A DNA stretch of 64,000 nt from Synechococcus sp. MW101C3 (GTDB taxonomy: Bacteria; Cyanobacteriota; Cyanobacteriia; PCC-6307; Cyanobiaceae). The translations under genes were made by a program, and so were the position numbers. How positions within the stretch are numbered: position 1 is the first letter of the stretch; every line of letters starts with the position of its first letter. This document shows, piece by piece, positions 9,944 to 53,243 of this stretch. The stretch is taken from contig NZ_NQKX01000009.1 in assembly GCF_002252635.1 (NCBI RefSeq), positions 124,001 to 188,000 on the forward strand, given 5' to 3'. A model generated the notes under the pieces. It was not told the origin of the DNA and did not search any database. It saw only the letters and a list, made by a program, of their open reading frames with translations.

Positions 9944-10058
9944 CACAAAACACGCACCCGCAACAGCCCGCCGGCAGCTGAGCGACACTACCCAGTATCG
10001 ATGAGCTATCGAACCACCTTCACTCAGTGAAGAGCTTGCCTGCTTCACCACCTCAAAG

Positions 10059-10310: not shown

Positions 10311-10471
10311 AGTTGCTGCCAAAAAGATCGCTCACCCGGAGATGCTCCAGGGCCTATGCGCTGATCAGAAAGGGATGCCTTCGCGATCGTGTTCCGCTAC
10401 TTCGTTCTTTCTGTGAGTGAGCACTCGTAAGGGTTCATGCCTGCCGATCCGCTACAGCGTCTGGCAATGAA

Positions 10472-11278: not shown

Positions 11279-11310
11279 GCCGCGTTCAACCAAGGACCAT
11301 GGATCGAGCC

Positions 11311-11327
11311 ATTACCTCCGAGGTAAT
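11311..11327. promoter_or_regulatory. Perfect palindrome, probable operator
   Basis: ATTACCTC-C-GAGGTAAT is an exact 8-bp inverted repeat around one base, 33 bases upstream of the XRE gene and 56 upstream of the DUF2834 gene. Size and symmetry fit a dimeric helix-turn-helix regulator. Binding by the adjacent XRE protein is inferred from position. Confidence 0.6.
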
Positions 11328-11382
11328 TGCTCCCATTCCCAAATAATCAGAGAGTAAAGGCTCCACGGCTGATGCCCCCACC

Positions 11383-11685
11383 ATGCAACGCGCTCTGATC
11401 GTCATCGTCCTTGCCCTCTTTGCTGCCCTGAGTGGCGCAGCCCTCTGGTACCACGGCTACTGGGGCATCATCGAGCCGAATTTCCGCAGCTTCGCAGCAG
11501 CCCAGGTCTTCGCCGACCTGGTGATTGCGCTGACCCTCGTGTTGGTGTGGATGTGGCGCGATGCGAGGGCGCAGGGGCGGAACCCCTGGCCTTGGATCCT
11601 GGCCACGCTGGCTGTGGGTTCCTTCGGCCCCCTGGGTTACCTGCTCACCCGTCGGGAGGCTGATTCCTCGGCATCCAAGGCGTGA
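11383..11685 (+). CDS. DUF2834 membrane protein
   Basis: A 100-residue protein with three membrane helices (about 5-24, 38-60 and 70-88). GYWGIIEPNFRSFAAAQVFADL and WMWRDARAQGRNPWPW are the conserved DUF2834 stretches. The family is uncharacterised. It sits divergently from the XRE regulator across a palindrome, which is probably its control site, and is followed by attC site 6, so regulator and target may travel as one cassette. Confidence 0.82.
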   Translation: MQRALIVIVLALFAALSGAALWYHGYWGIIEPNFRSFAAAQVFADLVIALTLVLVWMWRDARAQGRNPWPWILATLAVGSFGPLGYLLTRREADSSASKA

Positions 11686-11755
11686 CTCGCCAGGCCACCT
11701 GCGAGCACGTAGCAACCATCAACGTGCGTGCCGGGCGCGTCTGCTTTGTGAAGGG

Positions 11756-11840
11756 GCCTAACCTCAAGATTCGGAAGACGGGAGCGAATGGTGCCGCCTA
11801 TGCCATCTCCATAATCTGCCTCTGAACTGAAGCGTTAGGC
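11756..11840 (+). other. attC site 6
   Basis: Boxes GCCTAAC (11756-11762) and GTTAGGC (11834-11840) are perfect. Arms CTCAAGATTCGGAAG and CTCTGAACTGAAGC pair imperfectly. The right arm resembles no other site here. It closes the DUF2834 unit and precedes the VOC gene. Confidence 0.82.
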
Positions 11841-11867
11841 GTCACATTCAGTCCTCAATCTACCGCC

Positions 11868-12257
11868 ATGTCCTTCAGCCGAATCCTCACGAACATCTGC
11901 GCCGACGATCTCGCCGCATGCCGTGACTTCTACGTTCAGCTGCTGGGCTTTGTGGTGAAGTACGACAGTGATTGGTACGTGCAGCTGGGAGCCCCGGGAC
12001 CCTTGGAGCTTGAGTTCGGCATCATCAAGCGGACGCATGACCTCGTCCCCAAGGCCTACCAGACCGCTCCGACGGGAATGTATGTGACCTTCGTTGTTCT
12101 GGATGTCGATGAGGTCTACAAGAAGGCACAGGAGATGGGCGTAACAGTGATCCAGGAACCGCGAAACGAGTTCTACGGTCAACGCCGGTTCCTGGTGATT
12201 GACCCAGCCGGTTGCCTCATTGATGTGTGCTCGCCATGGAGCGAGCAGGAGAAGTGA
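11868..12257 (+). CDS. VOC (glyoxalase/bleomycin resistance) family protein
   Basis: A 129-residue single-module VOC protein built of paired beta-alpha-beta-beta-beta units. DLAACRDFYVQLLGF (15-29) is the first unit, with the strand ELEFGI, and the second includes VLDVDEVYKKAQEMGV and RRFLVIDPAGCLIDV near the end. VOC proteins bind a divalent metal and act as lyases, dioxygenases or drug-binding proteins; the substrate is not predictable here. It directly follows attC site 6 and is the last intact gene of the array. Confidence 0.88.
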   Translation: MSFSRILTNICADDLAACRDFYVQLLGFVVKYDSDWYVQLGAPGPLELEFGIIKRTHDLVPKAYQTAPTGMYVTFVVLDVDEVYKKAQEMGVTVIQEPRNEFYGQRRFLVIDPAGCLIDVCSPWSEQEK

Positions 12258-13299: not shown

Positions 13300-13373
<74 letters not shown>

Positions 13374-36071: not shown

Positions 36072-37373
36072 ATGGTTCCGTATTTCTCGAGGCGGCTGGT
36101 TGCCGGTCTTGCTGCAACTGCGATCACGGTATCCCTCGTCGCCTGCGGGGGCGGTGGCGGTGGGGATAGCGCTGGTTCTTTCGACGGAGAAGTGAAGGTT
36201 GGCATTCTTCACTCTCTGAGTGGAACGATGGCAATTTCTGAGACGACCCTGAAAGAGGTCGAAGAAATGGCTATCAAGGAAATCAATGATGCCGGCGGCG
36301 TCAAGGTTGGCGGCAAGTCCTACAAGATCGTCTCCGTCGTTGAGGACGGAGCATCTGACTGGCCCACCTTTGCTGAGAAATCCCAGAAGCTGATCGACTC
36401 CGACAAGGTCGCCGTGGTGTTCGGCGGCTGGACCTCCGCCAGCCGCAAAGCCATGCTGCCGGTGTATGAGTCCAAGAACCACATGCTCTTCTACCCCATT
36501 CAATATGAGGGTCAGGAGTGCTCCCGCAACATCTTCTACACCGGCGCCGTTCCCAACCAGCAGGCCGAGCCTGCGGTGGATTGGCTGATGAAAACGTACG
36601 GCGAAAAGCTGGGCAAGAAGGTCTACCTGGTCGGTTCTGACTACGTCTACCCCCGCACCGCCAACACCATCATCAAGGAGCAGATGAAGGCGCTCGGCGG
36701 CGAAACCGTCGGCGAGGATTACATCCCCCTCGGCAACACCGAGGTGGCGCCGATCATCGCCAAGATCAAGAAAGCCTTCCCTGATGGTGGCATCATCATC
36801 AACACCTTGAACGGTGACTCCAACGTCGCCCTGTTCAAGCAGTTCAAGGCTGCAGGCATTGATCCGGCCAAGTACCCGATCATGTCCTTCTCGATCGCAG
36901 AAGAGGAAATCCGCCAGATCGGCCCTGAGTACACCACCGGCACCTTCGCCGCGTGGAACTACTTCATGAGCCTGGATACACCGGCTTCGAAGAAGTTCGT
37001 TGCCGACTTCCAAGCGGCCTATGGGGCTGACCGTGTGGTGGGTGACCCCGCAGAGTCCGCCTACAACATGGTGTACCTGTGGAAGAACGCCGTTGAGAAG
37101 GCTGGCACCTTCGAAGATCTTGACAAGGTCCGGAAGACCATGATCGGCATCACCTTTGAGGCCCCTCAAGGTGAGATCAAGATGTTCCCGAACCATCACA
37201 CCTCTGAGCGTGTGATGATCGGCGAAGCCCTGCCCGATGGCCAGTTCAAGATCCTCTCTGACAGCGAGAAGGCCATTCCGCCCATCCCCTGGAACCAGTT
37301 CGTTCCTGAAACCAAGGGCTACACCTGCGACTGGACGCAGGACCGGCCGGATGCCGGCAAGTTCAAGATGTGA
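36072..37373 (+). CDS. urtA: Urea ABC transporter substrate-binding protein UrtA
   Basis: A 433-residue lipoprotein binding urea in the periplasm. The signal peptide ends in a lipobox (VSLVACGGGG). The mature protein is a type 1 leucine/isoleucine/valine-type binding fold: VKVGILHSLSGTMAISETTLKE, VFGGWTSASRKAMLPVYE, LFYPIQYEGQECSRNIFYTGAVPNQQ, all typical of UrtA. First of urtABCDE. A strong terminator-like hairpin follows it, which would let the binding protein outnumber the membrane parts. Confidence 0.97.
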   Translation: MVPYFSRRLVAGLAATAITVSLVACGGGGGGDSAGSFDGEVKVGILHSLSGTMAISETTLKEVEEMAIKEINDAGGVKVGGKSYKIVSVVEDGASDWPTFAEKSQKLIDSDKVAVVFGGWTSASRKAMLPVYESKNHMLFYPIQYEGQECSRNIFYTGAVPNQQAEPAVDWLMKTYGEKLGKKVYLVGSDYVYPRTANTIIKEQMKALGGETVGEDYIPLGNTEVAPIIAKIKKAFPDGGIIINTLNGDSNVALFKQFKAAGIDPAKYPIMSFSIAEEEIRQIGPEYTTGTFAAWNYFMSLDTPASKKFVADFQAAYGADRVVGDPAESAYNMVYLWKNAVEKAGTFEDLDKVRKTMIGITFEAPQGEIKMFPNHHTSERVMIGEALPDGQFKILSDSEKAIPPIPWNQFVPETKGYTCDWTQDRPDAGKFKM

Positions 37374-37381
37374 TCGTGCCT

Positions 37382-37413
37382 GGGTGGCTTCTTCGGAAGC
37401 CACCCTTTCCTTT
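37382..37413 (+). terminator. Intrinsic terminator or attenuator after urtA
   Basis: GGGTGGCTTC-TTCG-GAAGCCACCC is a perfect 10-bp stem with a TTCG tetraloop, followed by TTTCCTTT. It lies 8 bases after the urtA stop. Partial readthrough into urtB, or a separate urtB promoter, is needed for the rest of the transporter. Confidence 0.85.
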
Positions 37414-37825
37414 CACTTCTCCATTTCCTTTCTGGCCTGAGATTATCTTCGGCGTTGAAGCCTGCCTATCACTTTCGATAGCGCCTTCAATCGCCCCAGC
37501 TCTCAGGACATCATGTTCACGAGACTTGCAGACAACACCAGAGAGATCAGCCAGTAACGGATTGTTCTCTCTGGATTTATCATTTTTCAGACGATTCAAG
37601 CCATTGCTTCGCGTATTGAAGCGGCCTACACGGAGGTGGCACCATCTTGGCGTCTGCCCATGCACCTGCTGATGGGCTCAGGCCAATCTGTCGCTGCGCC
37701 CCTGACGCTCTGCAGAAGGCCCCGATCAAGCTTCACGCACAAAAACAGTTCGCAATATCACTTGATACAGCCGCAAGGCTCCTGTTGGTCCAAGGTTAAT
37801 CCCACTCGCACGGAACAGCCCCCCA
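37414..37825. other. Intergenic region urtA-urtB
   Basis: About 410 bases without a gene I can support. It is more AT-rich than its surroundings, suggesting a promoter for urtBCDE, but I found no clear NtcA box or -35/-10 pair by eye. Confidence 0.4.
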
Positions 37826-38983
37826 GTGGAACTTTTCTTCTCGCAGATTCTTGATGGCTTGAGCATCGGCTCGGTGCTGCTGCTCGCCGCCACGGGTCTC
37901 GCCATCGTGTTTGGCCTCATGGGGGTCATCAACCTGGCTCATGGTGAGTTCATGATGCTGGGTGCCTACATCACCTTTGTGGTCCAGAACCTGTTTCGGC
38001 CCATGGGCGGTGTGGTGTTTGAGCTCTACTACCCCGTGGCACTCGTGGCCGCTTTCTTCGTCACCGCCATCTTCGGCGTGGTGCTGGAGCGAACGCTGAT
38101 CCGCAAGCTGTATGGAAGACCACTGGAAACCCTGCTGGCCACCTGGGGGGTGAGCCTGATCCTGATCCAGCTGATTCGCAGCATCTCCACCTCCATGGTG
38201 ATCGGCATCGCCGCAGCTGTGCTCATCGGCTTCTTCGGTGGGCAGTTTCTCAGCAAAAAAATCGGTGATCGTCCCGCATTCCCCTATCTCAACGGGGTGC
38301 TTTGGGCCGTGGCAGTAGGGATCGGCCTTGTGGTGGTGAATTCCTTCTCGTCCGTGCGTGCCATCGCCAGCCCCTGGTTCGGGCCGCGCAACATTGACGT
38401 GACCGCACCGAAGTGGCTGCAAGGCAGCTGGGGCGAGATCGGCGGAATTGAACTGCCTGGCCTGAGGATTTTCATCATTCTCTTGTCGGCAGTGCTGCTG
38501 CTGTTCGTGATGTGGTTCCTCACCAAGAGCGTGTGGGGCCTCCGCATCCGGGCTGTCACCCAGAACCGGCAGATGAGCAACTGCCTGGGCATTCCCACCG
38601 ACAGCGTCGACAGCATCACGTTCGGACTCGGTTCAGGTCTGGCAGGAGTCGCAGGCTGCGCCATCACCTTGCTGGGATCCGTGGGCCCGAACCTGGGAGC
38701 GGCCTACATCGTGTCCTGCTTCATGGTGATCGTGCTGGGGGGCGTGGGAAACCTGCTGGGCACGGTGCTGGCTTCTCTGATCCTCGGCATCATTCAATCG
38801 GTGGTGGGTTCCGGATCGCTGTTGATCGTGTTCCCCGATATGCCGCCTGCGGCCAAAGGGGTGGTGGAATTCTTCGCCACCACAAGCATGTCGCTGGTGC
38901 TTGTATTCATCTTCATCATTGCCTTCCTGCAGTTCCGTCCCAACGGCATGTTCCCTCAGAAGGGGAGATCGGTAGATGCTTGA
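37826..38983 (+). CDS. urtB: Urea ABC transporter permease UrtB
   Basis: A 385-residue inner-membrane permease of the LivH type. GSVLLLAATGLAIVFGLMGVINLAHGEFMMLGAY is the family start, and LGGVGNLLGTVLASLILGI with its conserved glycines lies near the end. Some nine membrane helices are visible. GTG is the start codon. With UrtC it forms the urea channel fed by UrtA. UrtC begins 60 bases downstream. Confidence 0.95.
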   Translation: MELFFSQILDGLSIGSVLLLAATGLAIVFGLMGVINLAHGEFMMLGAYITFVVQNLFRPMGGVVFELYYPVALVAAFFVTAIFGVVLERTLIRKLYGRPLETLLATWGVSLILIQLIRSISTSMVIGIAAAVLIGFFGGQFLSKKIGDRPAFPYLNGVLWAVAVGIGLVVVNSFSSVRAIASPWFGPRNIDVTAPKWLQGSWGEIGGIELPGLRIFIILLSAVLLLFVMWFLTKSVWGLRIRAVTQNRQMSNCLGIPTDSVDSITFGLGSGLAGVAGCAITLLGSVGPNLGAAYIVSCFMVIVLGGVGNLLGTVLASLILGIIQSVVGSGSLLIVFPDMPPAAKGVVEFFATTSMSLVLVFIFIIAFLQFRPNGMFPQKGRSVDA

Positions 38984-39043
38984 TGCGCCGCTGCCAACAA
39001 CCAAGCTCCTTCCATCTGCTCCCTCTCCACTGAGGCCCCAGCC

Positions 39044-40183
39044 ATGAAACTTCTCAAGCGACTCGTTCCCTGGATTCTCCTCGCCATCGCGCTGTTCATC
39101 CTTCCAGCGGTCCTCAGTGATTTCCGCATCAACTTGTTTGGCCGCTATTTCTCACTGGCGATCACAGCGCTTGCTATCGACCTGATCTGGGGCTACACGG
39201 GGCTTCTGAGCCTTGGGCAAGGCATCTTCTTCGCCCTGGGTGGCTATGGGGTAGCGATGTACCTCACCCTCAACACCCCCAGTGAAGCGGGCGGCAACGG
39301 CATCCCCAAATTCTTTGAGAACTACGGTGTAGAACAACTGCCCTTCTTCTGGCAGCCCTTCTGGTCGCCCGCCTTCACTCTGATCGCCATCTGGGTGCTG
39401 CCCGCAATCGTGGCAGGGTTGGTTGGCTACCTGATCTTCAGAAACCGTATCAAGGGAGTGTACTTCTCGATCATCACCCAGGCGGCGTTGATGGTCTTCT
39501 TTCACTTCTTCAACGGCCAACAGAAGCTGATCAATGGCACCAACGGCCTGAAAACCAGCACCACCGAGCTGTTCGGCATGCTGGTGGGCTCCAGCGAGAT
39601 GCAGATCTGGCTGTACCGACTCACGGTTGTTCTCATTCCTGTCGCCTTTCTGATCTGCCGCTATTTCACCTCCGGCCGCTTCGGCGATGCCTTGATTGCC
39701 ATCCGAGATGATGAGCAGCGCTTCCGTTTCGCTGGCTTCAATCCCGTTCCATTCAAAACGATCGTCTTCCTCGTTGCCGGCGCGCTCTGCGGTATCTCAG
39801 GCGCTCTTTACACCGTTCAGAGCGGTATTGTGTCGCCGCAGTACATGTCGATCTCCTTTTCGATTGAGATGGTGATCTGGGTGGCTGTGGGGGGCCGAGG
39901 CACCTTGGTAGGCCCGATCATCGGCGCCGTTCTGGTGAACTATCTGCGCAGCTTGGTGAGCGAAGCGCTTCCCGAGTTCTGGCTGTTCGTGCAGGGAGCG
40001 CTGTTCATCTTCGTGGTGGTACTGATGCCGGATGGAATCTACGGCTGGGTGTCCAAAGGAGGACTGCGCACCTTGCTGGCCGCCTTCGGCATCGCTCCCA
40101 AAGCTCGTACCTATCCCCAAATCGACCAGGAGGGCCCTGGCATGGAAATGAAGAGCCCCGCCCCCACCGATTCCTCGGCCTGA
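39044..40183 (+). CDS. urtC: Urea ABC transporter permease UrtC
   Basis: A 379-residue LivM-type permease. Typical stretches are LIWGYTGLLSLGQGIFFALGGYG in the first helices, YFSIITQAALMVFFHFFNGQQ, DALIAIRDDEQRFRFAGFNP on the cytoplasmic coupling loop, and VAVGGRGTLVGPIIGAVLVNY. It partners with UrtB in the urea channel. About 210 bases without an evident gene separate it from urtD. Confidence 0.95.
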   Translation: MKLLKRLVPWILLAIALFILPAVLSDFRINLFGRYFSLAITALAIDLIWGYTGLLSLGQGIFFALGGYGVAMYLTLNTPSEAGGNGIPKFFENYGVEQLPFFWQPFWSPAFTLIAIWVLPAIVAGLVGYLIFRNRIKGVYFSIITQAALMVFFHFFNGQQKLINGTNGLKTSTTELFGMLVGSSEMQIWLYRLTVVLIPVAFLICRYFTSGRFGDALIAIRDDEQRFRFAGFNPVPFKTIVFLVAGALCGISGALYTVQSGIVSPQYMSISFSIEMVIWVAVGGRGTLVGPIIGAVLVNYLRSLVSEALPEFWLFVQGALFIFVVVLMPDGIYGWVSKGGLRTLLAAFGIAPKARTYPQIDQEGPGMEMKSPAPTDSSA

Positions 40184-40395
40184 GGCCTAGGCCGCTGGCT
40201 GCCCGGAGGAAGCCCGACGACATCAAGGCCAGACATCAAGGCAGAAAGTCAATGATCCTGGGCTACCACCCTCACGGCTCCATCAGATCCATCCACTCCA
40301 TCCTCATCCCATCGGGCCCTTCAGCTCACACGTCCACCAGGCAAACCCGCTGCCCAGCCCCCCTTCCACAGACCCCCTGAAACACCCTGGCGATC

Positions 40396-41142
40396 ATGTC
40401 TGAAACACTCCTTGAACTTCACGACGTCAGCGTCAGCTTTGATGGTTTCTTCGCCCTGACCGATCTTTCACTCACCCTGCAGAAAGGCGAACTGAAGTCG
40501 ATCATCGGGCCCAATGGCGCCGGCAAGACCACCTTCCTTGATGTGATCACAGGCAAGGTGCGCCCCACCAAGGGCACTGTCACCTTCAAAGGAAAGTCGT
40601 TGGTGGGGCTCTCCGAGCAGAAGATCTCAAGGCAGGGAATCGGCAGGAAGTTCCAGACGCCACGGGTGTTCGACAACCTCACGGTGCTGCGCAACCTGGA
40701 ACTGGCCGCCTCGCCGAACAAGAACCCCCTCAGCCTTCTCTCCGACAAGCTGCCGAAGGCCGCCAAGGATGAGGTGCATCGTCTAATGAGCTACGTGGGC
40801 CTTACCCCCTTCGCCACCACTCAGGCGGGTTCACTCTCCCACGGGCAGAAGCAATGGCTGGCGATTGCTTCCCTCGTGGCTCAGTCGCCGGAGGTGCTGC
40901 TGCTCGACGAGCCCGTGGCCGGGCTCACCGATGAAGAAACGGTTCGTACCGCTGAATTGATCAAGTCACTGGCGGGCGATCACACCGTTGTGGTGATCGA
41001 ACACGACATGGAATTCATCCGGGACCTCAATGCCCCCGTCACCGTGCTGCACCAAGGGCAACTGCTCACCCAGGGCCTGCTGGAGGATGTGAAGAAAGAT
41101 CCCCGCGTGATTGAGGTCTACCTGGGCCCAGCCGAGGAATAA
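40396..41142 (+). CDS. urtD: Urea ABC transporter ATPase UrtD
   Basis: A 248-residue LivG-type ATPase. Walker A is GPNGAGKTT, the signature reads LSHGQKQWLAIA (SHGQK in place of SGGQQ, usual for UrtD), Walker B is EVLLLDEPVAGL, and the H-loop is VVVIEHDMEFI. It drives urea import with UrtE. The starting MSETLLELHDVSVSFDGFFAL is typical. Confidence 0.96.
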   Translation: MSETLLELHDVSVSFDGFFALTDLSLTLQKGELKSIIGPNGAGKTTFLDVITGKVRPTKGTVTFKGKSLVGLSEQKISRQGIGRKFQTPRVFDNLTVLRNLELAASPNKNPLSLLSDKLPKAAKDEVHRLMSYVGLTPFATTQAGSLSHGQKQWLAIASLVAQSPEVLLLDEPVAGLTDEETVRTAELIKSLAGDHTVVVIEHDMEFIRDLNAPVTVLHQGQLLTQGLLEDVKKDPRVIEVYLGPAEE

Positions 41143-41182
41143 GCGGTTTCCACCACTCGCCTGACACCAACCCACAGCTGCC

Positions 41183-41899
41183 ATGACAACCGACAACCTC
41201 CTTTCCGTCTCTAACCTCAACGTTTACTACGGCGAAAGCCACATTCTTCGCAATGTGGATCTCTCCATCCCTAAAGGGCAGATGGTGTGCCTGATCGGTC
41301 GCAACGGCGTGGGCAAAACCACGTTCCTCAAAACGATCATCGGTCTGCTCAAGCAACGCTCCGGCAGCGTCCAGTACGACGACCAGGCCCTGAGCGATCA
41401 GCCCCCCTACCAACGGGCCCGCTCCGGCATCGGCTATGTGTCCCAGGGGCGTGACATCATTCCGCAGGTGACGGTGAAGGAAAACCTTCTGCTGGGAATG
41501 GAAGCGCTCCCGGGTGGCATGGCGAAGAACCGGCACATCGACCCGATCGTGTTTGATCTGTTTCCAATTCTCGAGAAGTTTTTGTCCCGCAAAGGCGGTG
41601 ATCTCAGCGGCGGACAACAGCAACAGCTAGCCATCGCTCGCGCTCTGCTGGGCAAGCCGAAATTGCTGCTGCTGGATGAGCCCACCGAAGGCATTCAGCC
41701 GTCCATCATCCACGACATCGAAGTGGCGGTGAAACGGATCATGAAGGAAACCGGAATCAGCGTGCTGCTGGTGGAGCAACACCTTCACTTCGTGCGCCAG
41801 TCCAACTACTACTACGCCATGCAACGCGGCGGCATCGTTTCAAGTGGCCCCACCGAGAGCCTCTCCGATGATGTGGTCCAGGAGTTCCTCACGGTGTGA
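41183..41899 (+). CDS. urtE: Urea ABC transporter ATPase UrtE
   Basis: A 238-residue LivF-type ATPase. Walker A GRNGVGKTT, signature LSGGQQQQLAIAR, Walker B KLLLLDEPTEGIQPS and H-loop VLLVEQHLHFV are all intact. Last gene of urtABCDE, 40 bases after urtD. No terminator is clear in the 285 bases before the convergent fmdB gene. Confidence 0.96.
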   Translation: MTTDNLLSVSNLNVYYGESHILRNVDLSIPKGQMVCLIGRNGVGKTTFLKTIIGLLKQRSGSVQYDDQALSDQPPYQRARSGIGYVSQGRDIIPQVTVKENLLLGMEALPGGMAKNRHIDPIVFDLFPILEKFLSRKGGDLSGGQQQQLAIARALLGKPKLLLLDEPTEGIQPSIIHDIEVAVKRIMKETGISVLLVEQHLHFVRQSNYYYAMQRGGIVSSGPTESLSDDVVQEFLTV

Positions 41900-42716: not shown

Positions 42717-43922
42717 TCAACAGGGAAGAATGTCCTGGTCAAAGATGGAGGTGGGAATCGCCAGGGTGCAGCAGGCATTGGGAATGTCCACGATGCCGCT
42801 GATCCTGCCCTCCACCGGCGCACAGCTCAGCAGCAGGTAGGCCTGCTCACCGGTGTAGCCGAAGCGCTTGAGATACTCAATGGCGTTCAGGCAGGCGCGT
42901 CGGTAGGCGATGTGCACGTCCATGTAGTGCTGCTTGCCTTCGAATTCATCCACGGAGATGCCTTCGAACACCAGATAGTCGGTGAAGTGGGGCTCCACCG
43001 GGCTGGTCTTGAACATGGGATTGACCATCCCATACTTCTCGACGCCACCTTTGATGATCTCCACATGCAGATCGAGGTAGCCCGACATTTCAATCGCGCC
43101 ACAGAAGGAGATTTCCCCATCGCCCTGGGAGAAGTGGATATCGCCCATCGAGAGCTTGGCGCCTTCCACATACACGGGGAAGTAAATGCGGGTGCCCTTG
43201 GTGAGGTTCTTGATGTCGCAGTTGCCTCCGTGCTCACGGGGCGGCACGGTGCGGGCCGCTTCGTTGGCCACACGCTCGAAATCGGCGCTGGGCAGCGTGC
43301 CGAGGATGGCGCTGTTGGGGTTGGGCAGGGCCGCCAGCACGGGCTCGCTGCCGGAGAGGCCGGCGCCATAGGTGCGCCGATCCGGGGCCGTGTTCACCAG
43401 CTCGGTTTCGCGGCGGTTCCATTCCCGCAGCAGCTCGTGGGAGGGCGCACAACCGATCAGGCCGGGGTGGGTGATGCCGGCGAAACGCACACCGGGGATA
43501 TGGCGCGATGAGGTGTAGATGCCTTCGAAATCCCAGATCGCTTTGGCTGCCTTGGGGAAGTGATCGGTGAGGAAGCCGCCGCCATTCTCTTTGGCAAAAA
43601 TCCCGGTGAAGCCCCACTCATCTCCCTGCAGCGCACCCACATCAAGGATGTCAACCACAAGAATATCGCCAGGTTGAGCTCCATTCACCCAGATCGGGCC
43701 GCTGAGCACGTGCACCACTTCCAGGTTCACATCAGCGATATCCTGGGGGTCGTCATTGTCCTTGATCTGGCCATCCGTCCAGTCCTTGCATTCGATCCGG
43801 AAAACCTCACCGGGGTTGACAGAAACGACGGCGGGGATATCGGGATGCCAGCGGTTGTGGCCCGGCATGTCCTGTTGATCCATCGGCTTGGTGAGATCAA
43901 CCTTGAACAGCGTTTTTGGCAT
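42717..43922 (-). CDS. fmdA: Formamidase
   Basis: A 401-residue FmdA/AmdA acetamidase-formamidase that splits formamide into formate and ammonia. MPKTLFKVDLTKPMDQQ, HNRWHPDIP, GDILVVDILDVGALQ, GVRFAGITHPGLIGCAPSHELL, GGNCDIKNLTKGTRIYFPVYVEGAKLSMGDIHFSQGDGE-like core (metal and substrate region) are all diagnostic of the family. Its position beyond the urea transporter adds a second simple-amide nitrogen source to this block. Confidence 0.95.
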   Translation of the reverse strand: MPKTLFKVDLTKPMDQQDMPGHNRWHPDIPAVVSVNPGEVFRIECKDWTDGQIKDNDDPQDIADVNLEVVHVLSGPIWVNGAQPGDILVVDILDVGALQGDEWGFTGIFAKENGGGFLTDHFPKAAKAIWDFEGIYTSSRHIPGVRFAGITHPGLIGCAPSHELLREWNRRETELVNTAPDRRTYGAGLSGSEPVLAALPNPNSAILGTLPSADFERVANEAARTVPPREHGGNCDIKNLTKGTRIYFPVYVEGAKLSMGDIHFSQGDGEISFCGAIEMSGYLDLHVEIIKGGVEKYGMVNPMFKTSPVEPHFTDYLVFEGISVDEFEGKQHYMDVHIAYRRACLNAIEYLKRFGYTGEQAYLLLSCAPVEGRISGIVDIPNACCTLAIPTSIFDQDILPC

Positions 43923-44665: not shown

Positions 44666-45535
44666 TCACCCAGCTGCCAGCAGCCAGCGCCAGAACGCTT
44701 CAGGCTCCGGCTCCAGCGGCTGCGGAGAACCGTTCACACTCAAGACCGGACGGCAGCCGAGGCTGTTAATCAGCAGCACGGCACTGCCTGGGCCCAGAGG
44801 ACAGGGACCTTCGCGGACCAGGCCCAGCGCCAGGGCGCGGCCCCGCATCACCCCCGGCAGGCAGCCGCTGGCCAGGGGCGGTGTGAACCACTGGCCGTCA
44901 CGCCGCACCAGCAGGTTGGCCGTGGTAGCGCAGCAGAGGCCGCCGGCCGTGCTCTCCAGCAAGGCATCGGCGGCGCCGGCGGCCCGGGCCTCACGCCGCG
45001 CCTCGATGGCGGGCCCGTAGGCGAAGGTTTTGCAGCGGCTCAGCAGGCTGGAGGCATTGCGCCGCTCCCTGCGGCTGACAATCACCGGCACGGGGTCGAA
45101 CTGCGGCGCCGCGGCCGTGAGCTGCAGCCAGAAGCGGGGCTGCAGTGATGGGGCACCGGGTGCCGGCAGCTCCACACCCCGCGGCCCCGTCGCCCCACCA
45201 GCGCCAGCCTCCACCGCCGGCGCGCCGCGGCTCCAGTTCAGGCGCAGCGCGCCGGTGTGGATGCCGCTGCGGGACACCGCCTCCGCCAGCAGGGCGCGCA
45301 CCCGCTCATCGCCGGGGGGTGGCTCCATGCCCAGCAGGGCGGCGCTCTGCGACCAGCGCTGCAGGTGGGCACTCAGCAGCAGCGGCTGCCCCGCTTCCAC
45401 CAGCAGGGTTTCGAACAGGCCGTCGGCCAGTTGCAGGCCCCGATCGGCCAGGGGCAGGGCCAGCTCGGCCGGTGCTCCCCAGAGCCCCGCCGCCCCCGGA
45501 GCGCCGCTGGGCTCGATCCAGGCGATCGCCTGCAT
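44666..45535 (-). CDS. pabC: Aminodeoxychorismate lyase (class IV aminotransferase fold)
   Basis: A 289-residue pyridoxal-phosphate protein producing p-aminobenzoate for folate. LADRGLQLADGLFETLLVEAG is the fold start, RCKTFAYGPAI carries the cofactor lysine, and LLESTAGGLCCATTANLLV and GCLPGVMRG are the phosphate-binding and substrate regions. It overlaps pabB by one base (TGATG). A branched-chain or D-amino-acid aminotransferase of the same fold is excluded mainly by context. Confidence 0.88.
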   Translation of the reverse strand: MQAIAWIEPSGAPGAAGLWGAPAELALPLADRGLQLADGLFETLLVEAGQPLLLSAHLQRWSQSAALLGMEPPPGDERVRALLAEAVSRSGIHTGALRLNWSRGAPAVEAGAGGATGPRGVELPAPGAPSLQPRFWLQLTAAAPQFDPVPVIVSRRERRNASSLLSRCKTFAYGPAIEARREARAAGAADALLESTAGGLCCATTANLLVRRDGQWFTPPLASGCLPGVMRGRALALGLVREGPCPLGPGSAVLLINSLGCRPVLSVNGSPQPLEPEPEAFWRWLLAAG

Positions 45536-46926
45536 CAGCACCCTCCAGCTGCGGGGCCTGGCGCGACGGCCGCCAGCAGCGGGCCCAGCTTCCAGAGCAG
45601 CTCCTCGGCCTCCGCCGCCGGGTCGGAGTCGGCCACGATGCCGCAGCCTGCATGGGCGCGCAGGCGCCGCCCCCGCAGCATCAGGCTGCGGATCAGGATG
45701 TTGCTGTCGAAGCTGCCATCGGCGCCGAAGCGGAACAGGGCGCCGCAGTAGGGGCCTCTGGGCACGGGCTCCCGTTCGCTCAGGCGCTGGCAGGCCCGCA
45801 CCTTGGGGGCGCCGCTGATCGAGCCACCCGGCCAGGAGGCGCGCAGCAGCTCCACCACGCTGCAGTCGGCGCGCAGCTGCCCCTCCACCACCGAGGTGAG
45901 GTGGTGCACGTGCGGGTAGCTTTCCAGCCCCACCAACTGGGGCACCTGAATCGAGCCCGGCACGCACACCCGGCCGAGATCGTTGCGGAGCAGATCCACG
46001 ATCATCACGTTCTCGGCGCGGTCCTTGGGGCTGGTGATCAGCTCGGCGGCGGCGGCGGCATCGGCTTCCGGATCGCCATGGCGCGGGCGGGTGCCCTTGA
46101 TCGGCCGGGTTTCCACCCAGCCGGTGGCGCTCACCCGCAGAAAGCGTTCCGGGGACGCCGAGAGCACCGCCTCGTCGCCAGCCACCAGGAGGCCGGCAAA
46201 GGGCGCCGGGCAGGAGCGGCGCAGCCGGCCGTACAGGGCCAGCGGGTCGGGGGGCGCAGCCAGGCTGGCCTCACAGCAGGCGGTGAGGTTGGCCTGGAAC
46301 AGATCCCCGGCAGCGATCCAGCGGCGCAGGTCCGTCACCTGGCGGGCGAAGGTGGCGGGATCGGTGTGCCAGTGCCAGTGTTCTGCGGCCACACCGGCCC
46401 CGCTGCCGGGCGCAGGGCCTTCAGCCGGGTCAGCAGCTGAGCCAGCAGGCGTGTCGGCCGCCGGCACCAGGGCCGCGAGCCGCTCTGCCATTGCCGTCAG
46501 CCGGGCGGGATCCAACCCTTCCAGCTCCAGACGACGCTCCTGCAGATCGAAGCGCAGCACGGGGTCGTAGCGGCCTGCCCAGAGCAGGGCCGTATCGGGC
46601 GAGCGCCAGTGGGCGGCCGGCTCCACCCACGCCCCGGCCTCGTAGGCGAGCCAGCCGAACCAGCTGCCGGGCCGTTCCCGCAGGCGCGCGAGGGCCACGA
46701 ACGGATCGGCGGCTTCCGGCTCACCCGGCAGCCCCCGGCACACCACCTGCTCCAGAGGAGCCACGCCCAGGAAGCCCCAACGCCCCAGCGCACTGCCATC
46801 GCCATCGAGCCAGGCGAGGCCATCGCCGCCGTCCGCGGCGGCCAGGGCGAGGGCCACCTCCCAGGGGTCGCGCCACGGCAGTGAGCGGCGCAGCAGCGGC
46901 GGCTGCGCCCCGGAACCCGGCGTCAT
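45535..46926 (-). CDS. pabB: Aminodeoxychorismate synthase component I
   Basis: A 463-residue chorismate-binding enzyme making aminodeoxychorismate. The diagnostic PIKGTRPR motif holds the active-site lysine that separates PabB from anthranilate synthase, which has [33 protein letters not shown] and [15 protein letters not shown] complete the site. The ATG at 46926 overlaps the queC stop (ATGA). The glutamine amidotransferase partner (pabA) is not in the window. Confidence 0.93.
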
Positions 46927-47633
46927 GCCGACGGCCCGCCCCAGCTGCCGCCTCCATCGCTGGCCAGGTCCGGGCGGCCCGCCTCCCGCAGGGCGGCATC
47001 GCGAATGCGGCAGCTGTCGCAGCGCCCGCAGGGCCGGGCGCCGCCGGCGTAGCAACTCCAGGTGCGGGCGATCGGCACGCCCAGACGCAGCGCCTCCTGC
47101 ACGATCCGGGTCTTGCTCCAGGTCACCAGGGGCGCCCACAGCCGGGCGCCGTGGCCCTCGCGGCCGCTCTTGCTGGCCAGATCAGCCAGCTGCTGGAAGG
47201 CGGCGAGGTAATCGGGGCGGCAATCGGGATAGCCGGAGTAGTCGATGGCGTTCACCCCCAGCACCAGCCGCTCGGCCCCGCGCGCTTCAGCCAGGCTCAG
47301 GCCGAGGGCGATGAACACGGTGTTGCGGCCTGGCACGTAGGTGGTGGGAATCACCCCCTCCTCCACACCCGCCACCGGCAGCGCCATGGCGGCATCGGTG
47401 AGGGCTGAGCCGCCCCAGGCCGCCAGGTTCACCGCCAGGGTGTGGTGCTCCGCCAGGGCCAGGCCGGTCGCCAGGGCGGCGGCCGCGGCCAGCTCCTGAC
47501 GGTGACGCTGGCCGTAGTCGAGCGAGAGGCCGATCACGTGGTAGCCCGCTTCGATCGCCAGGGCCGCAGCGGTGGCCGAATCGAGGCCGCCGGAGAGCAG
47601 GGCGATCGCGACGGGTGGGGCGGCGGCGCTCAC
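46923..47633 (-). CDS. queC: 7-cyano-7-deazaguanine synthase
   Basis: A 236-residue adenine-nucleotide alpha-hydrolase that turns carboxy-deazaguanine into preQ0 for queuosine in tRNA. The PP-loop [13 protein letters not shown] is at the N-terminus with [13 protein letters not shown], and the zinc-binding [15 protein letters not shown] lies near the C-terminus. It overlaps both neighbours by 4 bases. Other queuosine genes are not in the window. Confidence 0.96.
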
Positions 47634-49738
47634 GGCGAAGCAGGCGTGTCAGGCGTCACGGGCGGCGGCGTCGTGGGTGCGGAGGGCGCCACAGGGGGCT
47701 GGGTTGGGATGGCGGGTGGCGTCACCGGCTCAGCGGGCGGCGGCGCCGTGGTGTCGCCGGGGTCGGTGGGCGGCGGCTGGGGCGGCTCCGGCGGCGGCGC
47801 ATCGGCGCGCAACGACAGGGTGATCATCGCCGGGGCCACACCGTCGTTGGTGACCAGCAGCTGCACTTCGGTCCCCGGCACCGGCGGCAGGGTCACCACC
47901 CGCAGCGGGCCCTTCGGCTCCAGCAGGCTGCCGGCAGCGTTGTAGACGCTCATCTGCATCAACGGCGAGCCGTTGACACCGAGCACCAGCCGGTATCCCG
48001 CCGGCAGCCGGATCGGGAACAACCGCGCCCCACCGGCGCCGAGCGAAGCGGAGAGGGCCTTCACCTCGCCCGCTGTGGCCTGGATCGGTTCGATCTGCAG
48101 GGTTTCCAGCGTCTGCTCGCCGGCGGCATACCAGAGCTGGCGGAAGGGCTCGGCGGGGATGTCGGCGCCGGCACGGCCGGGCAGCAACGCCTGGGCATTG
48201 CCGGAAATCAGTTGGCGCAGCACCGGCGAACTCACCCCCTGGGCGGCGAGCTGACGCTGGCGGGCCTCCCAGTCGGCGGTGGAAAAAGAGCCCAACCTGC
48301 GGCGGAGCGGCGGCGGCAGCTGCTCCACCCGGGCCAGCCATTCCTCCGCCAGGGCGTTCCACACCTTGCGCAGGGGGGCGTCCTCGATCGAGTCGTTGGG
48401 CAGACGGCCGCCACGCTCGGGGAACTGGGCCAGCAGGTTGGCGTCCACCAACCGCAGGAACCAGCTGCGGTTGATCTGCAGCGCCCGCAGGCGGTTCAGC
48501 AACTGCTGGCGCTGATCGACCTCACCGGGGGGGAGGCTGGCGGTGAGCTCGCGGGGCTGTTCAGCCGGGCGATTGGCGGGGGCATCACCGCGGCCCAGCA
48601 GCCACCAGCCCGCGGTGATGCCCACCACAGCCGACACCACCAGGGCCACCACCACCGGCAAGAGCCGCCCTTCCACCGCCTCCTCCTTCTGCTGCTGCCG
48701 GCTGAGCGGCGGCATGGGCGGTGGCGGTGGCCGCCGCTCCACGACCCGGGGCTCGGGAGCCGGAGCTGCAGCCGCAGGGGCCGGCGCGGCCGTGAGGGGG
48801 GCGGCTGCAGAGTTGGTGGTGGAGGCAGCGGCCTGCTCGGCAGGCGCAGGGTCCGCAGCGTCGATGCCGGCCAGTCCCGGCGAAACGGCGGCGGGGGGCA
48901 CGAGCATCAGGGTGCGATCGGCGCGGGCCACCGGGCCCGTGCTTTCCGGCATCGGCAGCGCCTGGAAGGCAACGAGGGCCTGCGGCGTGCTGGCAAAGCG
49001 GGCGGTGGGATCGGCACTGATCAGCCGCTCCAGGGCGGCGCGGAACGGTGGGTCGAGGCTGAGGCCGTCGGGCCAGCGCCAGGCCAGGCTCACCGGATCG
49101 AGCAGGGCGGCGGGATCCTCACCGCTGAGCAGCACCAGCGCCACCACCCCCAGGCCGTGCAGGTCCATCCAGGGCAGCAGCGGAGCGCCGGCCACCTGCT
49201 CCGGCGGCGCATAGCCCGGGGTGGCGCCGGCGGCGGCCTGGCCGGGGCCGGTCCAGCCGATGTCGAGCAGTACCGGCAGACCGTCGCGGTCGCGGCGCAG
49301 CAGGTTGGCGGGGGTGAGATCGCCGTGGCAGATCTCCTGGCCGTGCAGCACCGCCAGCACCGGCAGCAGCTGGCGCAGCAGCAGCAGCACCTCACCGGGG
49401 CCGAACACCAGCTGGCGACCCCGCCGCGCCTCCAGCAGCTCCTGGTAGGTGCGCCCGTCCTGCCACTCGCGCACCAGCCAGAGCTGGCCGTCCCGCTGGA
49501 TCGTTTCCCCGAAGCGGGGCACCTGGGGGTGGAGCAGGGCCTGCAGGCGGCTCCAGCCCGCCCGCGCCCCGGCCTGATCGAAGCCGGGCCCCAGCTGTCG
49601 CAGGGCCACGGGCGCCTCGCCGGCCAGCAGATCACTGGCGCGCCACAGCACCCCCTGAGGACCGCTGGCCACCTCCATCTCCAGGCGGTAGCGATCGGCG
49701 ATCACCGCACCGGCGGCCGCCCCGGGCTGGTCAGCCAT
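47630..49738 (-). CDS. Divergent serine/threonine protein kinase-like protein
   Basis: A 702-residue membrane protein. Residues 14-270 follow the eukaryotic-type kinase fold, but key motifs are altered: the VAIK lysine is Arg (VALR, 44-47), HRD is HGD with the Asp kept (138-140) and LTPAN in place of LKPEN, and DFG is DIG (159-161). A low-complexity Ala/Pro linker, one membrane helix (about 372-395) and an extracytoplasmic part of about 300 residues ending in a Pro/Thr-rich tail follow. It may be a weak kinase or pseudokinase sensing an envelope signal. ATG at 49738 overlaps cysK; the stop overlaps queC. Confidence 0.78.
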
Positions 49739-50807
49739 GGGTGGGCCGGTCCTGCGGAACGCCATCCAGCAAGCCCCGTTCGGGCTGGCGCAGGCCGCGG
49801 CCGGCCAGCCAGTCGGCGTCGTAGAGGCGGGAGCGGTAGCGGTCGCCGCCGTCGCAGAGCACGGTCACGATCGTGTGGCCCGGACCGAGGCGCCGGGCGG
49901 TTTCTACCGCCGCGGCCACGTTGATGCCCACCGAGCCGCCCATGAACAAGCCTTCACGCCAAAGCAGCTGGTAGATGGTGTCGAGCGCGGCCTGGTCGTC
50001 GATGCGCACGGCGTCATCGATCGGGGCACCCTCCAGATTGGCGGTGACGCGGCTGTTGCCGATCCCCTCGGTGATGGAGGTGCCTTCGGCCTGCAGCGCC
50101 CCGGCGGTGGCCCAGCTGTAGAGGGCACTGCCGTGGGGATCGGCCAGCACGCAGCGCACCTGGGAGGAGCGCTCCTTGAGGAAGAGGGCCACGCCGGCGT
50201 AGGTGCCGCCGGTGCCCGTGGCCGACACCCAGGCGTCGATGCGGCCGCCCGTCTGCTCCCAGATCTCCGGACCGGTGCTGGCGTAGTGGGCGCGGCGGTT
50301 GGCCAGGTTGTCGAACTGATTGGCCCAGACGGCACCGGGCGTTTCGGCGGCGATGCGTCCCGAGAGCTTCACGTAGTTGTTGGGATCGCGGTAGGGCACC
50401 GCCGGCACCGTGCGCACCTCGGCGCCGAGACTGCGCAGCAGGCCGATCTTCTCGGCCGACTGGGTGTCCGGGATGACGATCAGAGCCTTGTAGCCGCGGG
50501 CATTGCAGAGGTGGGTGAGGCCGATGCCGGTGTTGCCGGCGGTGCCCTCCACCACGGTGCCGCCCGGGTCGAGGGCGCCGCTGGCTTCCGCCTCCAGCAG
50601 GATGCCCAGGGCAGCGCGGTCCTTCACCGATCCGCCGGGGTTCATGAACTCGGCCTTGCCGAGGATCTCGCAGCCGGTGAGCTCGCTGAGCAGCCCCAGC
50701 CGGATCAGCGGGGTGTTGCCCACCGCACCGACGAAGCCCTGGGTGGTTCCCGCCCGGGCGACGGCCATGGCCCTGCCGCTGCTGATCGAACCGGCGGTGC
50801 TGCCCAT
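49731..50807 (-). CDS. cysK: Cysteine synthase A (O-acetylserine sulfhydrylase)
   Basis: A pyridoxal-phosphate enzyme of about 345-358 residues forming cysteine from O-acetylserine and sulfide. GNTPLIRL opens the domain, NPGGSVKDRAAL bears the cofactor lysine, GTAGNTGIGL binds the substrate carboxylate, and SATGTGGTYAG the phosphate. A C-terminal tail after CDGGDRYRSRLYD is somewhat longer than usual. The start may be internal (MAVARAGTTQGFVG, 39 bases in). First gene of the operon running to pabC; divergent from egtB, whose product uses cysteine-type sulfur. Confidence 0.93.
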   Translation of the reverse strand: MGSTAGSISSGRAMAVARAGTTQGFVGAVGNTPLIRLGLLSELTGCEILGKAEFMNPGGSVKDRAALGILLEAEASGALDPGGTVVEGTAGNTGIGLTHLCNARGYKALIVIPDTQSAEKIGLLRSLGAEVRTVPAVPYRDPNNYVKLSGRIAAETPGAVWANQFDNLANRRAHYASTGPEIWEQTGGRIDAWVSATGTGGTYAGVALFLKERSSQVRCVLADPHGSALYSWATAGALQAEGTSITEGIGNSRVTANLEGAPIDDAVRIDDQAALDTIYQLLWREGLFMGGSVGINVAAAVETARRLGPGHTIVTVLCDGGDRYRSRLYDADWLAGRGLRQPERGLLDGVPQDRPTHG

Positions 50808-50904: not shown

Positions 50905-52221
50905 ATGGCCTCCGCCGCCCCCACCGAGGCCCTGCTGCGGCGGCTTCATGCCGTGCGCGCCCACAGCGAGGCGCTGATCGCGGAGCTGGAGCCGGAAGAT
51001 CTGTGCCTGCAGGGCATGGCGGACGCCAGCCCGCCCAAGTGGCACCTGGGGCACACCACCTGGTTCTTCGACACTTTCCTGCTCACGCCCCACCTGCCGG
51101 GTCATGAGCCGGCGGAGAGCCGCTGGAGCTTCCTGTTCAATTCCTATTACGACGCGATCGGGGCGCGCCACCCCCGGCCGCAGCGGGGACTGCTGAGCCG
51201 GCCACCTCTGGCGGCGGTGCTCGCCTGGCGGCGGCGCGTCGATGCGGGGCTGGCGGCCCTGGTGGAGCAGCTGAGCGCCGGGCCCGCCACGGCGGCGGCG
51301 CCGCTGTGGGAGCTGCTGGAGCTGGGTCTGCAGCACGAGCAGCAGCACCAGGAGCTGCTGCTGATGGATCTGCTCGACGGCTTCAGCCGCAACCCGCTGG
51401 AGCCGGCGGTGGAGCCCTCGGGCCGGGGTGCCGAAGCCACCTACGAAACGCTGGTGGCCGCCGCCGACGCCGCCCCCGCCAGCACCCCCAACCCGCCCGC
51501 GTCCGCCTGGCTGCACTGGCCGGGAGGGCTGGTGGAGATCGGTCACGCCGAGGCTGGCGCCGGCCCCGAGGGCCCGTCCGGCGCCTTCCATTTCGACAAC
51601 GAAAGCCCCCGTCACCGCCAGTGGCTCGAGCCCTTCGCGCTGGCCCCCCGGCTGGTGTCGAACGGGGAGTACGCCGCCTTCATCGCCGCGGGCGGCTACC
51701 GCCGGCCGGAGCTGTGGATGAGCGAGGGCTGGCAGGTCTGTCAGCAGCGCGGCTGGCAGGCGCCCCGCTACTGGCGCGGCAGCGGCGCCCCCAAGGGCTG
51801 GTCGTGGGAGTTCACGCTGGCGGGACGGCGCCCCCTGCACCCGGCCGCACCCGTGCGGCACCTCAGCTGGTTCGAAGCCGACGCCTATGCCCGCTGGGCC
51901 GAGGCCCGCCTGCCGAGTGAAGCGGAGTGGGAAGTGGCCGCCGCCACGCCACCCCCGGCGGGCGGCAGCGGCGGGCTGGAAGCCCTGCAGGGGGTGCTGT
52001 GGCAGTGGACGTCCAGCCCCTACCGTCCGTATCCGGGCTTCCGGCCCGCCGCCGGAGCGGTGGGCGAATACAACGGCAAATTCATGAGTTCCCAGATGGT
52101 CCTGCGCGGCAGCAGTTTCCTCACACCGCCGGGCCACGGCCGCCTCACTTACCGCAACTTCTTTCCGCCCGCGAGCCGCTGGCTGGCCGGCGGCCTGCGC
52201 CTCGCCCGGGACGGCCGATGA
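50905..52221 (+). CDS. egtB: Ergothioneine biosynthesis sulfoxide synthase EgtB
   Basis: A 438-residue non-heme iron enzyme joining a thiol to hercynine. The N-terminal DinB-like domain supplies iron-binding histidines in WHLGHTTWFFDTF and QHEQQHQELLLMD. The C-terminal half is a formylglycine-generating-like domain (FHFDNESPRHRQWLEPFAL, LSWFEADAYARWAEARLPSEAEWE, MVLRGSSFLTP). It overlaps egtD by 4 bases. With only egtB and egtD present, cysteine rather than gamma-glutamylcysteine may be the donor (inference). Confidence 0.93.
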   Translation: MASAAPTEALLRRLHAVRAHSEALIAELEPEDLCLQGMADASPPKWHLGHTTWFFDTFLLTPHLPGHEPAESRWSFLFNSYYDAIGARHPRPQRGLLSRPPLAAVLAWRRRVDAGLAALVEQLSAGPATAAAPLWELLELGLQHEQQHQELLLMDLLDGFSRNPLEPAVEPSGRGAEATYETLVAAADAAPASTPNPPASAWLHWPGGLVEIGHAEAGAGPEGPSGAFHFDNESPRHRQWLEPFALAPRLVSNGEYAAFIAAGGYRRPELWMSEGWQVCQQRGWQAPRYWRGSGAPKGWSWEFTLAGRRPLHPAAPVRHLSWFEADAYARWAEARLPSEAEWEVAAATPPPAGGSGGLEALQGVLWQWTSSPYRPYPGFRPAAGAVGEYNGKFMSSQMVLRGSSFLTPPGHGRLTYRNFFPPASRWLAGGLRLARDGR

Positions 52222-53243
52222 GCGCCCCCTCCGCCGCTCTGCAGCGCGGGACGGCCGCTGTCGACCTGCTCGACCTGCATCCCGTCGCCGCCGACATGCG
52301 GCGGCTGGTGGTGGAGGGCCTGTCGCGCAGCCCCCGCCAGCTGCCCGCCTGGTTCCTCTACGACGCCGAGGGCTCGCGTCTGTTCGACCGCATCTGCGAG
52401 CAGCCGGAATACGCACTCACCGCCACCGAAACCGCCCTGCTGGAGCGGGAGGCGCCGGCGATGGCGGCGGCGCTCGGCGCCGGCGTGCCGGTGGAATTCG
52501 GCGCCGGCAGCGCCCGCAAGGTGTCGCCGCTGCTGGAGGCCCTGGCACCCCCGGCCTATGTGGCGCTCGACATCAGCTCCGAGCACCTCGCCGGTGCCTG
52601 CCGGGCACTGCAGGCCCGCCATCCGGCCATTCCCGTGCTCGGCATCTGCTGCGATTACAGCCAGCTGCTCACCCTGCCGGCCCACCCCCTGCTCGATGGC
52701 CAGCGGCTGCTGGGCTTCTACCCGGGCAGCTCGCTCGGCAACTTCGCCCCCAGCGAAGCGGTGGCCCTGCTGCGTCAGTTCGCCCGGCTGCTGGGGCCCG
52801 AGGGTCGTCTGTTGATCGGCATCGACCAACCCCGCGCCGCGGCCCAGCTGGAGGCCGCCTACGACGATGCCGCGGGCTGGTCGGCCGCCTTTGCCCGCAA
52901 CCTGCTGGTGCGACTCAACCGGGAGCTGGGGGGCAACTTCGTGCCGGAGCGCTTCCGCTACCGCGCCCGCTGGCAGCCGCAGCAGAGCCGCATCGAGATG
53001 GCGCTGGTGAGCACCTGCCACCAGGTGGTGGACGTGGCGGGCCGGCGCTGGCCGTTCGCCGCCGGCGAGGCACTGGTCACCGAGCACAGCCACAAGTACG
53101 ACCCCGCGGCCTTCACCGCCCTGGCGGCCGCGGCCGGCTGGCGGGCCCAGGCGCGCTGGGCCGATCCCGGCGAGAGCTTCAGCCTGCACCTGCTCGCTCC
53201 GCAGGCGCCAGGCAGACTTGAACCAGTCGAGGCCAGCCGATGA
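52218..53243 (+). CDS. egtD: L-histidine N-alpha-methyltransferase EgtD
   Basis: A 341-residue SAM-dependent enzyme that trimethylates histidine to hercynine, the first ergothioneine step. PAWFLYDAEGSRLFDRICEQPEYALTATE-like start is typical, with VEFGAGSARKVSPLLEAL as the SAM loop, LGFYPGSSLGNF and FVPERFRYRARW in the histidine-binding region. The ATG at 52218 lies on the egtB stop. The methyl donor links it to the ahcY gene at the right edge, which clears S-adenosylhomocysteine. Confidence 0.94.
   Translation: MSAPSAALQRGTAAVDLLDLHPVAADMRRLVVEGLSRSPRQLPAWFLYDAEGSRLFDRICEQPEYALTATETALLEREAPAMAAALGAGVPVEFGAGSARKVSPLLEALAPPAYVALDISSEHLAGACRALQARHPAIPVLGICCDYSQLLTLPAHPLLDGQRLLGFYPGSSLGNFAPSEAVALLRQFARLLGPEGRLLIGIDQPRAAAQLEAAYDDAAGWSAAFARNLLVRLNRELGGNFVPERFRYRARWQPQQSRIEMALVSTCHQVVDVAGRRWPFAAGEALVTEHSHKYDPAAFTALAAAAGWRAQARWADPGESFSLHLLAPQAPGRLEPVEASR

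Follow-up and report, generated by a model that had tools for sequence, protein, structure and literature searches.

Zhang et al. (2007; PMC2176072) described the cbSTKI-other serine/threonine (Ser/Thr) kinases of cyanobacteria as a kinase domain followed by a long, unidentified C-terminal part. The relevant passages of that survey count one Ser/Thr kinase each in MIT 9313, CC9902, CC9605 and CC9311 and find none in WH8102 or in four strains of Prochlorococcus. They place the four marine members near Slr1443 (SpkE), which according to work cited there lacks kinase activity; the passage on SpkE in a 2025 review (PMC11863333) calls it active. Here we report on a kinase-like membrane protein encoded in a 64,000-nucleotide stretch of the Synechococcus sp. 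MW101C3 genome (the window, to which coordinates given without a locus number refer), in which a divergent kinase domain is joined through a linker and a transmembrane (TM) helix to an extracytoplasmic domain (ECD). We infer that the four marine genes are members of this kinase-TM-ECD family. The cbSTKI-other kinases share with it the kinase domain, the long C-terminal part and the deviating motifs, but the survey treats its members as Ser/Thr kinases, and the passages concerned name neither the ECD nor its survival without a kinase domain.

Seven families of bacterial pseudokinases (CP1, DYD, ActPs1-3, GLW and DLHK) are listed in a second 2025 review (PMC12599244). According to its sections on these families, DYD pseudokinases resemble the window protein in being membrane-associated, in carrying Arg at the beta3 Lys position, in lacking the alpha-C Glu and in keeping the catalytic-loop Asn; they differ in the DYD motif, where the window family has DIG or DFG, and were described from actinobacteria and firmicutes. 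The CP1 pseudokinases likewise occur in cyanobacteria and show variable motif loss, but they have no TM helix and are fused to COG3899, whereas the window protein does contain a TM helix and showed no ATPase domain when scanned against Pfam. By these descriptions, it departs from each of these two families in a defining feature. Similar in layout are cyanobacterial kinases with a TM helix and C-terminal repeats that by eye resemble the pre-peptidase C-terminal (PPC) domain (loci L137-L142; L-numbers denote loci and G-numbers genomes compared). These share the order of kinase, TM helix and extracytoplasmic part, and, as a further likeness, have an HRDISPDN or HRDIAPDN catalytic loop, but their C-terminal part misses the ECD profile (best sequence E-value 0.03, in L138). 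PASTA-type PknB/StkP kinases differ by their PASTA repeats; no PASTA match was found in the window protein or in 37 ECD rows, and model NF033483 scored 30.7 bits against a cut-off of 450.

The divergent kinase lineage is real, ancient and partly known, the deviating motifs of its marine members having been noted in the passages of PMC2176072 cited above. What is new is a fixed pseudokinase signature with canonical relatives, together with repeated complete loss of the kinase domain while the ECD is retained and a corrected view of the gene neighborhood; the parts of the open-licence literature searched contained neither a description of the ECD nor such repeated loss. We favor, at a probability of roughly 0.6, the reading that the protein is a conserved membrane pseudokinase whose cytosolic module is dispensable and whose ECD is conserved.

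Motifs of the kinase-like domain

The window protein matches PF00069 (Pkinase) with 52.2 bits over residues 65-211 (cut-off 31.7), and the only other hit in the Pfam scan was an APH match below cut-off. A first-pass annotation made from the sequence had stated that the protein carries Arg for the VAIK Lys, HGD for HRD and DIG for DFG, and it does. That annotation had missed that the alpha-C Glu is absent too and that the catalytic Asp, the catalytic-loop Asn and the DFG Asp are retained. The Gly-loop pattern (GxGxxG) is likewise absent, with ASGPQG in its place, and this segment is variable across the family.

Matches to the kinase-like protein were found in 111 of the 201 genomes of the window's family and matches to the ECD profile in 109; G049 gave a weak match to the kinase-like protein. 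The closest named relative is Synechococcus sp. ATX 2A4 (L033), by which the organism would be a picocyanobacterium of the Cyanobium/Synechococcus type. Motifs were compared in alignment A1, which holds 61 non-redundant kinase-bearing proteins and excludes kinase-less forms, fragments and duplicates. The beta3 Lys position is Arg in 59 proteins, Leu in one, His in one and Lys in none, and HRD is replaced by HGD in 59, CGD in one and HTD in one. Since Arg and HGD are each common to 59 of the 61, they mark a lineage-wide pseudokinase-like protein and not local damage, and both are fixed in picocyanobacteria. The same cannot be said of DIG, which is real in the window but does not define the family: it occurs in two proteins, DFG in 50, DYG and DGG in three each, EGG and DVG in one each, and one has a gap, so that the Ile is a local change. 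None of the 61 has a DYD motif. The catalytic-loop Lys position is occupied by Ser (26), Asn (15), Cys (11) or Thr (9), and the catalytic-loop Asn is present in 54. When three family rows were aligned with 39 relatives, the alpha-C Glu position fell in a gap in all three, and in the alignment of the 61 proteins the alpha-C columns contained no conserved acid.

These relatives came from a phylum-wide search with the ECD, which matched 80 of 292 genomes, 20 of them in the window's family and 60 outside it. We examined 36 loci outside the family: 33 hold 39 kinase-ECD frames of 434-749 residues in which both profiles matched, and three are kinase-less. Most of the 39 kinase domains have canonical motifs, with Lys at beta3 in 37 (Gln in two), Glu at alpha-C in 36 (Lys in two, Gln in one), the HRD Arg in 37, its Asp in 38 and the DFG Asp in 37. 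The catalytic-loop Lys is replaced by Ser, Ala, Thr or Cys in all 39, which indicates that this one change is ancestral. Because the outgroup is otherwise mostly canonical, it would be the picocyanobacterial branch that degenerated, and the remaining losses appear to belong to it.

A second cyanobacterial family (f6) has taken a parallel course, with both altered motifs and kinase-less ECD proteins. In the proteins encoded at L112 (positions 3752-5767) and L114 (4275-6275), the beta3 Lys has become Gln and the alpha-C Glu has become Lys, which makes them likely pseudokinases that arose by another route. Another ECD-family member (L110, 4732-6957) has HGN for HRD and HFG for DFG and is possibly a further pseudokinase. 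Tandem pairs of ECD-family kinases, one of 568-629 residues beside one of 652-749, were seen at L101, L105, L128, L129, L130 and L135.

Loss of the kinase domain and retention of the ECD

At five loci (L049, L050, L056, L057 and L059), only the TM helix and the ECD remain, in frames of 323-358 residues; that of L050 has no ATG before the TM helix. L098 encodes a strongly diverged kinase-less form of 327 residues. No trace of a kinase domain turned up in a six-frame search of the five loci, and the kinase profile had no match anywhere in the six kinase-less genomes, five of which are 95-100% complete and one (G028) 77%. We therefore rejected a frameshift, an assembly error or transfer of the kinase domain to another gene. 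On an ECD tree of 101 rows that includes the second family, kinase absence requires six changes, of which at least four are forced by well-supported branches; the tree was built by a quick method, and its long branches include L057, L059, L098 and L104. Partial decay is also found: L047, L048, L051 and L052 have DGG or EGG for DFG, His for the catalytic-loop Asn and a gapped APE segment, and in L053 DFG is deleted. The kinase-less ECD loci examined in the second family were L104, L115 and L132. The four genomes there with such loci (G214, G441, G372 and G342) hold other kinases; one that we examined, at L143 of G441, has HRDIKPDN and no ECD. Since parts of the kinase domain or all of it are lost while the ECD stays, it is probably this outer part that the cell still requires.

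The first-pass annotation had also proposed a large extracytoplasmic part, and about 320 residues do lie beyond the TM helix. The protein has one hydropathy peak (2.46, for the window of residues starting at 359; next best elsewhere 1.69). No Pfam family was found for the window ECD at E-values up to 1, and a sequence search of the PDB gave nothing convincing. An AlphaFold2 (AF2) model of the ECD made from 11 sequences (m1422e629bec6) has a mean predicted local distance difference test (pLDDT) score of 78.8 and comprises a low-confidence start that includes the TM helix, a helical part (76-94 in blocks of ten residues) and a beta-sandwich. The predicted sandwich resembles GOLD/PPC-like folds, with a best Z of 13.1 to the GOLD domain of TMED1 (root-mean-square deviation 1.8 over 92 residues) and a Z of 10.5 to the PPC domain of a collagenase. 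This would be a resemblance of fold only, without a shared sequence family, and the list of matches was filled by beta-sandwiches, so that it barely covers the helical half.

Selection was estimated as the ratio of nonsynonymous to synonymous substitution rates (dN/dS) in 14 close pairs, two of which share a row. Kinase-domain values were 0.05-0.27 in 13 pairs and 0.48 in L058-L083, where the ECD value was 0.22; the linker had the highest value of all in 13 pairs. For the window protein and L004, dN/dS was 0.11 in both domains, with 97% identity in the kinase domain and 94% in the ECD. This value speaks for maintenance of the kinase-like domain in the window's genus, and on its strength we rejected gene decay in the window. 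The domain is maintained there, though the ECD is under tighter constraint in most pairs.

Weighing the pseudokinase reading

Taken together, the motif changes fixed among 61 orthologues, the canonical relatives, the kinase-less ECD loci, the changes required by the tree and the dN/dS of 0.11 are what we count in favor of a membrane pseudokinase with a conserved ECD. We also count the content of the window genome (3.03 Mb, 99.99% complete), where the kinase-like gene is the only one of two Pkinase matches above cut-off. The other, of 21 bits, lies in a frame that by eye reads like ABC1/UbiB. PP2C_2, the one phosphatase family searched, had no match in this genome and did match in Synechococcus elongatus, one of the controls.

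On this reading, there would be a cyanobacterial family of membrane Ser/Thr kinases built from a kinase domain, a TM helix and a helical plus beta-sandwich ECD, and the protein would belong to its picocyanobacterial branch. The loss of beta3 Lys, alpha-C Glu, Gly-loop and HRD Arg would date to the picocyanobacterial ancestor and would have left a pseudokinase in which the Asp, Asn and DFG Asp that were kept probably still hold Mg-nucleotide. The TM-anchored ECD would be the conserved working part, binding a partner or ligand in the periplasm or lumen, and the cytosolic pseudokinase may serve as a docking or allosteric module. That module would be under purifying selection in the window's genus and yet dispensable, having been deleted repeatedly elsewhere.

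A bolder version, which we hold only tentatively, is that the ECD of a receptor-kinase family came to act on its own as a protein of the envelope or lumen. The kinase would first have turned into a pseudokinase and then been deleted several times independently, in picocyanobacteria and in the second cyanobacterial family. What was left would be a ligand-binding anchor that no longer signals to the cytosol by phosphorylation and possibly serves thiol or ergothioneine homeostasis. One gene family, mostly at one syntenic locus, offers a natural series in which a canonical kinase, a pseudokinase, partly decayed forms and forms without any kinase domain follow one another, and in which one can ask what the outer domain of a bacterial receptor kinase does alone. 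The findings suggest, too, that a genome credited with a single Ser/Thr kinase may lack a functional Hanks kinase altogether.

Several observations weigh against the pseudokinase reading. We know of no ligand or partner of the ECD; the label of sensor, given to the protein in the first-pass annotation, is not borne out for this reason and because some relatives keep the ECD without any kinase domain. The ECD is itself not indispensable: seven of the eight genomes of genus g9 with egtD show no ECD match, and G161 keeps only remnants, namely the first ~100 kinase-domain positions and 31 ECD positions. Kinase-domain dN/dS exceeds that of the ECD in 11 of the 14 pairs (it is equal in the window pair and lower in two), though it stays below 0.5 in all. 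Orthology outside the family is carried by the ECD, as the kinase profile matched the ECD-bearing gene best in only three of eight outgroup genomes with ECD-bearing kinases (G338, G361 and G236) and another kinase in five (G205, G211, G227, G251 and G431); the better-scoring kinases examined carry different C-terminal parts. The AF2 model of the kinase domain is poor (pLDDT 51.6) and unusable for pocket geometry. The HGD Asp in 61 of 61 orthologues and the DFG Asp in 59 are more than a dead scaffold needs, so that some phosphotransfer may remain. Finally, the passages of PMC2176072 on the four marine members judged their motif deviations tolerable.

In G161, the kinase-start and ECD pieces adjoin (L099, 5144-5583), as if most of the gene had been deleted. 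In the two loci examined from ECD-less genomes (L097 of G008 and L100 of G007), a search next to egtB turned up no diverged ECD.

Retention of the two Asp residues, and of the Asn in 54 orthologues, speaks for an alternative that we consider unlikely, a still active atypical kinase in which Arg stands in for the beta3 Lys and the contact of the alpha-C Glu is made by a different residue. The purifying selection seen on the kinase domain fits it as well, and, according to the section of PMC12599244 on the DYD family, kinases that combine the Lys-to-Arg change with a lost alpha-C Glu have been modelled with ATP. Here, however, Gly-loop, beta3 Lys and alpha-C Glu are all gone, and no family-wide replacement Lys or acid is seen by eye in alignment A1. 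The repeated loss of the whole domain while the ECD stayed and the lack of a PP2C_2 match in the window genome also argue against an active enzyme. Still less probable is a relic drifting to loss without a present role, for which the graded decay at L047, L048, L051, L052 and L053 and the values for L058-L083 speak, but which is hard to reconcile with the low kinase dN/dS of the other 13 pairs and with a kinase domain better conserved than the ECD in the window's genus.

Gene neighborhood and features of the window

The five-gene block is as first annotated: its limits are exact, the genes are real, and each overlaps the next by 1-8 bases. The overlap is eight bases between cysK and the kinase-like gene (ATG at 49738, TGA at 49733-49731), four between the latter and queC (GTGA), four between queC and pabB (ATGA), and one or seven between pabB and pabC, depending on the pabC start. 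The gene names hold in kind; cysK and queC pass NCBIfam cut-offs, whereas the pabB-like and pabC-like proteins pass Pfam cut-offs only, every NCBIfam PabB or PabC model shown for them scoring below its own cut-off.

Table 1. Coordinates of the kinase-like gene, its parts and its neighbors in the window.
Feature	Coordinates	Strand	Basis or remark
pabC-like class IV aminotransferase	44666..45535	-	PF01063 160.3 bits; start ATG 45535 or GTG 45541
pabB-like chorismate-binding enzyme	45535..46926	-	PF00425 273.7 bits; best NCBIfam model TIGR01824, below cut-off
queC	46923..47633	-	TIGR00364 200 bits, cut-off 150.3
Kinase-like membrane protein, 702 residues	47630..49738	-	Kinase-like domain, linker, TM helix, ECD, Pro-rich tail
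C-terminal beta-sandwich of ECD, ~residues 547-646	47801..48100	-	AF2 model and fold search
Helical part of ECD, ~residues 404-546	48101..48529	-	AF2 model m1422e629bec6
Single TM helix, ~residues 359-381	48596..48664	-	Hydropathy peak; helix in AF2 model at low confidence
Divergent Hanks-type kinase domain, residues 9-265	48944..49714	-	PF00069 and orthologue alignment
DIG replacing DFG, residues 159-161	49256..49264	-	Orthologue alignment
HGD replacing HRD, residues 138-140, catalytic Asp retained	49319..49327	-	Orthologue alignment
Arg47 at beta3 (VAIK) Lys position	49598..49600	-	Orthologue alignment
cysK (cysteine synthase A)	49731..50807	-	NF007989 518.7 bits, cut-off 387
egtB, divergent from cysK	50905..52221	+	TIGR03440 495.3 bits, cut-off 360
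egtD	52218..53243	+	TIGR03438 368.4 bits, cut-off 290.9

The link to queuosine and folate genes drawn from this block does not extend beyond the window's clade, and we rejected it as a general feature. In 40 loci, taken with ~5 kb on either side unless the contig ended sooner, the downstream gene is smpB in 34 and queC in four, the other two (L046 and L075) being cut by contig ends; queC is present in each of the eight proteins that share the nine-row ECD clade with the window's. With smpB commoner and queC limited to one clade, the five-gene operon represents a rearrangement at the level of that clade, the more usual order being egtDB / (cysK) - kinase / smpB - ruvB. cysK is adjacent and upstream in 20 of the 40 loci. 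The commonest neighbors, absent from the first-pass annotation, are egtB and egtD on the opposite strand. The neighborhood is accordingly corrected from queuosine/folate to ergothioneine genes.

A further reading, compatible with the others, is that the protein is devoted to ergothioneine (or cysteine/thiol) metabolism, where it might gate EgtB/EgtD or sense an extracytoplasmic oxidant; we think this improbable. The reading draws on the position of egtB, upstream and divergent in 35 of the 40 loci, including three of the five kinase-less ones (L049, L056 and L057). It draws also on co-occurrence: 102 of the 201 genomes have both ECD and egtD, 80 neither, seven the ECD only and 12 egtD only, in counts uncorrected for phylogeny. 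Some exceptions are drafts or broken contigs, and in two of the 'egtD only' genomes (G118 and G149) the kinase half is present. Three 99% complete genomes (G053, G130 and G188) keep the ECD without egtD, and the g9 genomes mentioned above show the converse. In L058 and L083, egtB lies 1.5-3 kb away, and outside the family, no egtB or egtD was found beside the ECD genes of the 36 loci except for a 33% egtD-like match in L104. Moreover, the whole egtDB-(cysK)-kinase-smpB-ruvB block is conserved, so that the synteny with egt genes may be historical.

Elsewhere in the window, a gene at 42717-43922, presumably of the formamidase/acetamidase type, has 97% identity to its counterparts in L068 and L073, where pabB reaches no more than 66-68%; this could reflect either unusually strong conservation or recent transfer. 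By eye, a five-gene cluster at 36072-41899 resembles an ABC transporter of the urea/branched-chain amino acid type and sits in lower G+C (0.58-0.60, against mostly 0.67-0.73). The stretch at 4001-12000 has a G+C of 0.51-0.54 against the same background, with few long frames and no obvious family by eye; it looks island-like, and a tRNA-Arg gene lies nearby at 13300-13373.

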